Shown piece after piece: positions 13,088 through 58,045 of a stretch of 64,000 nucleotides of DNA. The position numbers and the translations under genes are program-made. Each line of letters starts with the position of its first letter. The first letter of the stretch is position 1. Where the stretch lies: contig JALHNV010000002.1 in the NCBI GenBank assembly GCA_022843325.1, positions 36,920 through 100,919 of the forward strand, given 5' to 3'. The notes under the pieces are model-generated. The model did not search any database. It was not told where the DNA came from and saw only the letters and a program-made list of their open reading frames with translations. This stretch comes from Pseudolabrys sp. Its GTDB lineage: Bacteria > Pseudomonadota > Alphaproteobacteria > Rhizobiales > Xanthobacteraceae.

Positions 13088-13109
13088 GTCGATGATCCTG
13101 GTTTCTTTT

Positions 13110-29433: not shown

Positions 29434-29436
29434 GTC

Positions 29437-29584
29437 TTCCCTCGCCCCGCTTGCGGGGAGAGGGTGGCGAGCGAAGCGAGCCGGGTGAGGGGGCTTCGCT
29501 GTATTTGAGGCGCCTCCTCACCCGACCATCTTCGCTTTGCTCAGACGGTCGACCTCTCCCCGCAGGCGGGGAGAGGTGAAGAAG
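29437..29584. repeat. Palindromic intergenic repeat, family B
   Basis: cttccctcgccccgcttgcggggagagggtggcgagcgaagcgagccgggtgaggggg ... cctctccccgcaggcggggagaggtgaag. Confidence 0.75.
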
Positions 29585-43736: not shown

Positions 43737-43943
43737 CGAACTTCTTTCCTTGACCTCTCCCCACAGCGGAGAGGCGAAGAGGGGCCTCCAAACGACTTAA
43801 CGCCCGAGGGCGCATTGCGCTGTCGGGCGGTGGCCTCCGGCCTCAGGGACCGGGCGGCGAACGGGTCTTCACGTCTCTTGCGAGAGTGGGCGCAACCTAG
43901 AAGCGGCCCGCCTCCGAGTCAAGACACAGAAAAACTATAAATA

Positions 43944-46309: not shown

Positions 46310-46354
46310 TCTTTCTTCACCTCCCCCTGGAGGGGAGGGTAAAGGAAGTACTCG

Positions 46355-48236: not shown

Positions 48237-48329
48237 CCGCTCGTCCCCGCGGAAGCGGGAACCCAGTTTTTTACGCGGGGGGCTTTGAATCGCCGCTCTG
48301 GATTCCCGCTTGCGCGGGAATGAGCGGAG
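48237..48329. repeat. Palindromic intergenic repeat, family A copy 4
   Basis: ccgctcgtccccgcggaagcgggaacccag ... ctggattcccgcttgcgcgggaatgagcggag. Confidence 0.85.
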
Positions 48330-48334
48330 TTCTC

Positions 48335-49153
48335 TCATCCACCCACCCACCCGCACGTCGCCAGCATCTGCCGCATATGCGCCGGCGCCGGCGCGGTAAC
48401 GACGACCGGCGGCTTGTTCTTGGAAATCGGCACCACGATCTCGCGCGCGTGGAGATGCAGCGGCGGCCCGCCGGTGCGCGGCGCGCTGCCATAAATGTTG
48501 TCGCCAACAATCGGCCAGCCCATCTCGGCGCAATGTACCCGCAACTGATGCGTCCGGCCGGTGAGCGGTTCGAGGGAAAGCCAGGTGAACTTTCTTTCAC
48601 CCTCCCCTGGAGGGGGAGGGTCGGATCGCCGAAGGCGATCCGGGGTGGGGTGGTCTTGGACTTGAAGTTCACCCCCTCCCGCCGAACTGCGTTCGGCGAC
48701 CTCCCCCCTCCAGGGGGAGGTCGAGGAAGCAAACCGCCCCATCACCTTCCACACCGTCTGCGCCGGCTTGCCGTCCGGGTCGGGCTTCATCCACCAGCCG
48801 CGATCCTCGTCGAGCTTGCCGAGCGGCATGTCGATGCGGCCTTCGTCGGCGTCCGGCCCGCCTTCGACCACCGCCCAGTAGGTCTTGCCGATCTGGCCGT
48901 TCTTGAACAGCTTGCCCAGCAGCGCCAGCGCCTTGCGGTGACGGCCGAGCACCAGGCAGCCGGACGTGTCCTTGTCGAGCCGGTGGGCCAGCGCCGGATC
49001 GCGCGGCAGCCCGAACCGCAGCGGTTCGAAATAATCCTCCAGGCTGTGGCCGCCCTTCGGCCCGCGATGCACCGACAGCCCGGCCGGCTTGTCGATCACC
49101 AGCATCAGGCCGTCGCGGTACAGCAGGCGGGAAAGCATCTCTTCCGGTGTCAT
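48335..49153 (-). CDS. RluA family pseudouridine synthase carrying an in-frame palindromic insertion
   Basis: MTPEEMLSRLLYRDGLMLVIDKPAGLSVH; LAHRLDKDTSGCLVLG; LEPLTGRTHQLRVHCAEMGWPIVGDNIYG; about 46 extra residues between VMGR and FTWLSLEPL. Confidence 0.92.
   Translation of the reverse strand: MTPEEMLSRLLYRDGLMLVIDKPAGLSVHRGPKGGHSLEDYFEPLRFGLPRDPALAHRLDKDTSGCLVLGRHRKALALLGKLFKNGQIGKTYWAVVEGGPDADEGRIDMPLGKLDEDRGWWMKPDPDGKPAQTVWKVMGRFASSTSPWRGEVAERSSAGGGELQVQDHPTPDRLRRSDPPPPGEGERKFTWLSLEPLTGRTHQLRVHCAEMGWPIVGDNIYGSAPRTGGPPLHLHAREIVVPISKNKPPVVVTAPAPAHMRQMLATCGWVGG
48591..48729. repeat. Palindromic repeat (family B) inside the RluA-type CDS
   Basis: ttctttcaccctcccctggagggggaggg ... cctcccccctccagggggaggtcgaggaag; terminal hairpins in inverse orientation. 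Confidence 0.8.
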
Positions 49154-49193
49154 GCCGAAACCGCTATCACGGGCGCGCCATGAAGACGACAGC

Positions 49194-57710: not shown

Positions 57711-57741
57711 AAAAAAACGGGCCGGCACAAAGGCCGGCCCG
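57711..57741 (-). terminator. Minus-strand rho-independent terminator with no annotated minus-strand CDS upstream
   Basis: Minus strand CGGGCCGGCctttgtGCCGGCCCGTTTTTTT; the T-run exists only on the minus strand. Confidence 0.8.
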
Positions 57742-57870
57742 AAGACTTGGGGATTGAACCGTACGCGGTACTCAACTGGCCCGGTCGACTGACCCCCGGG
57801 GGGCTGGGGGGCTGAGGAATCCGGAGATCAACCGGACCGGGCCTTGAGGCAACGGTCCAGTTATCCCCCC
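57711..57870 (-). ncRNA. Candidate structured small RNA (rod-like, 6S-like overall shape; identity unknown)
   Basis: Nested pairings, plus coordinates: 57749-57754/57863-57868, 57756-57762/57852-57858, 57771-57775/57844-57848, 57778-57786/57835-57843; followed by the minus-strand terminator. Confidence 0.55.
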
Positions 57871-58045
57871 GCCGCGTGACCGGCAATTGACGAAAATAGG
57901 GCGTTATTGTGGGAAGTTCTGACGTGTTCGTGAGGGCCGAAAGCGGTGTTCCCGCACCGGATTCTGCCGGTGATTGCCGTCAAATGTCTCTTGCAGCACG
58001 CGTTTCCCGGCGCGATCATTACCGCCAACGTTAAGGAGGCGCCGC

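Follow-up and report, generated by a model that had tools for sequence, protein, structure and literature searches.

How a palindromic DNA repeat comes to lie, in frame, inside an RluA-type pseudouridine synthase gene, and whether such an insert recurs at the same position in other genomes, is the question raised by one locus in the 64,000-nt stretch of Pseudolabrys sp. DNA analysed here (the window). The gene (48335-49153, minus strand) was assigned to the RluA family by Pfam PF00849, the NCBIfam TIGR00005 subfamily and alignments: its product matches PF00849 (PseudoU_synth_2) with an E value of 5.8e-31, the best NCBIfam match is the TIGR00005 subfamily (164 bits, below the cut-off of 192.7), and the protein has the PseudoU_synth_2 domain, the HRLDxDTSG aspartate and the TGRTHQ motif that characterise RluA-type enzymes. 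Translation likely starts at the ATG at 49153, which yields 272 residues, compared with 520 in the mechanically called open reading frame (ORF). Directly downstream of the gene lies a CGTC-like hairpin dimer (48237-48330), and the C-termini of some RluA orthologs read through repeats of this kind (SREGGNPE).

The element and its host gene

Codon-level comparison with empty and filled orthologs of the genus (i.e. those without and with an insert) delimits an in-frame insert of 147 nt, or 49 codons, at 48587-48733 (minus strand), in place of the 12-nt beta-hairpin turn of most orthologs. In the ortholog alignment the insert corresponds to residues 141-189, placed after WKVMGR and before TWLSLEPLTGRTHQ. 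The original prediction of a palindromic repeat in frame within an RluA-type gene is thereby borne out: the translated protein reads as quoted there and the frame is open. The predicted location also holds, while the alignment makes the insert slightly wider than the 48591-48729 and approximately 46 residues first proposed. As foreseen, the conserved motifs are kept on both sides, with HRLDKDTSG (containing the catalytic Asp60) N-terminal and TGRTHQLRVHC C-terminal of the insert, and these flanks are under selection (see below).

On the plus strand, the insert is bounded by two inverted arms of 32 nt each that are 78% complementary, the left one (48592-48623) harbouring the hairpin CCTCCCCTGGAGGGGGAGG at 48601-48619 and the right one (48697-48728) the hairpin CCTCCCCCCTCCAGGGGGAGG at 48700-48720, in agreement with the terminal hairpins in inverse orientation that had been noted. 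Further hairpins are found by folding in the inner part (48624-48696, plus strand), around GATCGCCGAAGGCGATC, GGGGTG...CACCCC and GCCGAACTGCGTTCGGC. The whole forms a GC-rich cruciform, and a 151-nt stretch outfolds 200 of 200 dinucleotide shuffles (z of -6.3 as DNA and -6.9 as RNA), with an RNA fold of -92.9 kcal/mol for the element. An Rfam search returned no known structured RNA at the RluA element, and the 49-residue insert peptide has no NCBIfam match at E<=10. Elsewhere in the window, Rfam matched a BjrC174 sRNA (57714-57934, minus strand, 70 bits) and an ffh sRNA (43793-43844, minus strand, 52 bits). Inspection by eye of the RluA site, the helicase site described below and the intergenic empty/filled pairs revealed no target-site duplication, though old insertions may have lost one; comparison of empty and filled RluA alleles suggests that a short part of the turn, amounting to a few nucleotides, was replaced.

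The insert is one member of a dispersed family. In the 3.88-Mb source genome (G000) the best other copies share 77-80% identity over nearly the full length and many further partial copies occur, and the arm patterns CCTCCCCN1-9GGGGAGG and CCTCTCCCCN1-9GGGGAGAGG are found 58 and 31 times, respectively, compared to zero for each reversed control. Outside the arms, many copies start near TTTCTTAC and finish near GTAAGAAA. The intergenic element at 29437-29584 (no strand assigned), whose CCTCGCCCC and CCTCTCCCC arms are of the form CCTC(T/G)CCCC, has the same architecture, confirming the likeness first noticed. At 46320-46338, upstream of a MiaB-like gene, the source genome has a solo arm where a relative with approximately 90% nucleotide identity (G026) has a full two-armed element, suggesting that the rest was lost in the source genome. 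When 55 element places were scanned roughly for codon usage, few fell within ORFs that have coding signal on either side of the element, and most others look intergenic. The coding hosts revealed by this genome-wide search for in-frame copies are the RluA gene, a UvrD/PcrA-type helicase gene and uvrB, in a census that was based on arm patterns and selected stretches and misses divergent copies. The notion that the element is unusually stop-free is not supported, as 14 dispersed copies average 2.29 open frames out of six versus 2.73 expected from composition. Since open frames are not particularly frequent among dispersed copies, those at the RluA site reflect a filter on the enzyme.

An AlphaFold2 model of the filled protein has a mean pLDDT of 85.7, with most of the catalytic domain above 90, whereas residues 145-177 fall below 50 and are flanked by strands 132-140 and 189-196. 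The model thus predicts that the insert is a disordered loop joining two strands of a confidently folded catalytic domain. The solved RluC, RluA and RluD structures align with the host family and are without a comparable insert. The new surface segment that had been envisaged next to the catalytic domain is predicted to be disordered and is weakly constrained, so nothing in the analysis points to a gained function.

Recurrent inserts at one beta-hairpin turn

Alignment with RluA orthologs of relatives, which set the insertion boundaries, recovered the ortholog in 41 of 44 genus genomes, 34 of them empty and seven filled (G000, G026, G002, G012, G010, G016 and G063), with no internal stops in the latter. 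Empty alleles have a turn of 4-9 codons, with 12 nt at this position or, in a few, 24-27 nt. A scan of GTDB genomes unearthed inserts at the same turn beyond the genus, in three further Hyphomicrobiales (L114, L116 and L178), Nitrobacter (L120), Tardiphaga (L176), four Microvirga (L132, L134, L142 and L156) and two Rhodopseudomonas palustris (L139 and L150). The frame is open in all 18 distinct filled alleles and strong hairpins are present in nearly all of the inserts; that of Tardiphaga is short and degenerate, and that of Microvirga L142 contains additional nested palindromes, also in frame. Filled orthologs hold this or another palindromic repeat, and no ortholog was found that shares the segment without repeat DNA. 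In G012, Microvirga and R. palustris, the insert itself belongs to a repeat that is dispersed through the respective genome. While most of the compared genomes are metagenome-assembled, the isolates (Microvirga and R. palustris) show the same.

We consider it very probable that a non-autonomous palindromic repeat landed in the beta-hairpin turn of an RluA-type enzyme and was tolerated at this permissive loop. A repeat of about 140 nt with long inverse terminal hairpins would have entered the turn and would have been retained because the reading frame stayed open. Such repeats presumably enter many places and selection would remove most of those in coding sequence, the exposed turn being one of the few coding spots able to accommodate some 50 disordered residues, which may be why it is filled repeatedly.

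Recurrence could instead stem from target specificity, with the insertion machinery recognising the DNA of the RluA site. This would account for the clustering of all events in one stretch of a few codons, interruptions elsewhere inside the gene not having been seen in the orthologs compared. Yet the flanking DNA is unlike among filled lineages (GTGATGGGGCGC, GTGCTCGGCCGC and GTGATGGGAAGG), inspection by eye disclosed no evident motif common to the RluA, helicase and intergenic empty/filled sites, and unrelated repeat families would need a single target, making this explanation unlikely.

To count insertion events, we used a gene tree built without the insert columns (96 rows, 18 of them filled), a quick tree with many weak branches, on which the presence/absence label needs at least 12 changes, seven of them forced by well-supported branches. 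The insert families cut across this tree: the inserts of G012 and G010 resemble those of R. palustris, that of G002 resembles that of the distant G063, and the source insert resembles those of L114 and L116. Because at least 12 changes are needed and the families do not track the tree, the sequence comparison is better explained by repeated independent insertion, perhaps with some losses, than by one event in a common ancestor. One ancient, basal insertion followed by losses and sequence turnover would explain the identical position in all filled alleles, and sharing does occur, with one insert common to G000 and G026, one to both R. palustris and one family to three Microvirga. It is nonetheless improbable, as each loss would have to restore a short turn, the differing insert families disagree with the gene tree and those inserts that were tested occur as dispersed repeats in the genomes that carry them.

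Selection was then compared between the insert and its flanks. Between G000 and G026, which carry the same insert at 96% protein identity, the flanks have a Ka of 0.024 and a Ks of 0.27 (a ratio of about 0.09), and the insert a Ka of 0.033 and a Ks of 0.07, values that derive from few sites (6 differences). In other pairs that apparently share an insert, Ka/Ks is approximately 0.4 to 0.9 in the insert versus 0.1 to 0.3 in the flanks, and insert length differences amount to whole codons. Thus, the flanks are under strong purifying selection and the insert is under weak constraint. The enzyme is most likely still functional and the added loop mostly a passenger. An adaptive role for the insert, either as an mRNA hairpin with a regulatory effect or as a new surface for protein interactions, could be argued from its highly stable RNA fold (-92.9 kcal/mol, z -6.9) and from the recurrent use of one position, but the peptides are unrelated across families, predicted to be disordered and weakly constrained, and 34 of the 41 genus orthologs do without an insert, so we give this reading little credence. 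An assembly artefact or a decaying pseudogene is very unlikely: although the source assembly is fragmented (137 contigs) and palindromic sequence is difficult to assemble, the same insert is present in G026, isolates have comparable ones and the flanks have a Ka/Ks of about 0.09.

Interrupted loops in other genes and intergenic slots

The other two coding hosts in the source genome each carry two in-frame elements. In the UvrD/PcrA-type helicase (contig C51:15502-18379) one is located between DEYQDTN and VGDDDQS and the second near the C-terminus, and in UvrB (contig C54:1764-5028) they occupy the N- and C-terminal linkers. Across the genus, the first of these helicase sites is interrupted in 35 of the 38 orthologs, leaving aside one further match (the 39th), which is a paralog. 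In the order, a match to the helicase was obtained in 80 genomes, and it appears cut at this loop in only four besides the source genome. A repeat was recognised in 23 of the 27 helicase loops read out, and these repeats belong to unrelated families, including the CCTC(T)CCCC type, CGTC-like GTCATTCCGG dimers, the CTTCGAGACGC type and others. Between the arms, 12 of the 27 loops encode an LEDTW/LADTF-like core peptide (e.g. SLEDTWD), and such cores are flanked by different arm families in different genomes. In two of these 12 (L248 and L258), the left and right sides come from different families; ordinary whole-element insertion is insufficient to explain such loops.

A comparable pattern is seen between genes when G000 is aligned with G026: by eye, the intergenic slots at 13088, 16969, 29434, 40951, 50683 and 58423 hold different families in the two genomes, that at 29434 being the slot of the 29437-29584 element, and two others, at 49175 and 50123, are occupied in G026 but empty in G000. 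It is conceivable, though we put it forward tentatively and with considerable doubt, that a few protein loops act like such intergenic slots, which unrelated repeats enter, in which they replace one another by direct replacement, and which they leave again.

Relation to known palindromic repeats

In-frame palindromic insertions are established in Rickettsia, where Rickettsia palindromic elements (RPEs) lie in genes that include that of a translated, active guanylate kinase (PMC2229807), and RPE-1 has been reported in the tRNA pseudouridine synthase B gene of R. conorii (PMC3733652, PMC2229807). The RluA insert takes the same form, a palindrome of about 100-150 bp with terminal inverted repeats, in frame in a conserved gene, and its family resembles RPEs (palindromic, ~105-150 bp) in being both intergenic and in frame in conserved genes of an alphaproteobacterial host. 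The RPE-like, protein-coding insertion that had been suggested is supported by orthologs with an empty site, by the copies dispersed through the genome, by the intact frame and by the selection on the flanks. No sequence relation to RPEs was found when the insert peptide was compared with NCBIfam, and the peptide gives no support for membership of an RPE family. The RluA insert further differs from RPEs in that it is GC-rich, its hosts are Hyphomicrobiales and several families occur at one codon position.

Di Nocera et al. 2013 listed genes for excinuclease, UvrD/Rep helicase and pseudouridine synthase among those that contain repetitive extragenic palindromes (REPs), and also described two Xanthomonas in which recB carries REPs at about the same site (PMC3733652). 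CGTC- and GTAG-tagged REP dimers are likewise inverted hairpin dimers, mostly intergenic with some intragenic (PMC3733652). CGTC REPs are defined by a CGTC (or TGTC/CCTC) head, an 8-9 bp stem starting with A-T pairs, a 4-5 nt loop and a CCA tail; the RluA insert is not one of them, since its arms (CCTCCCCTGGAGGGGGAGG, with CCTCCCC stems) have neither the A-T stem start nor the CCA tail. In relatives, the helicase loop does contain CGTC-like dimers. In-frame fusions of miniature inverted-repeat transposable elements (MITEs) are also known, namely ERIC, Correia and RPE (PMC2229807, PMC10969869), and the RluA element resembles MITEs in being short and non-autonomous, with terminal inverted repeats and dispersed copies. 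It differs in that it is GC-rich and lacks TA ends, and in that neither a target-site duplication nor a parent insertion sequence was found. A REPIN is similarly an inverted hairpin pair with a spacer. We reject a RAYT/REPIN origin, as the source assembly (94% complete) has no match to PF01797 (Y1 transposase), and this search for a RAYT-type transposase in the source genome identified no mobilising enzyme for the repeat. PF01797 matches were detected in five of the 44 genus genomes, all of them weak, and in none of the genomes of one to four contigs.

The kind of event is therefore already known from RPEs and REPs, and the unusual part is the repeated use of one protein position: in the open-access papers covered by our search, we found no report of one enzyme codon position recurrently filled by several repeat families. 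These findings extend in-frame palindromic insertions from Rickettsia to the Hyphomicrobiales, with many natural empty/filled pairs that include cultured isolates. They also draw attention to a few nucleic-acid enzymes (pseudouridine synthases, UvrB and UvrD) as recurrent hosts, echoing the REP lists from other bacteria. With replicate insertions at one enzyme loop, it becomes possible to test the old question of whether inserts of this kind are carried along neutrally or supply material for new parts of proteins.
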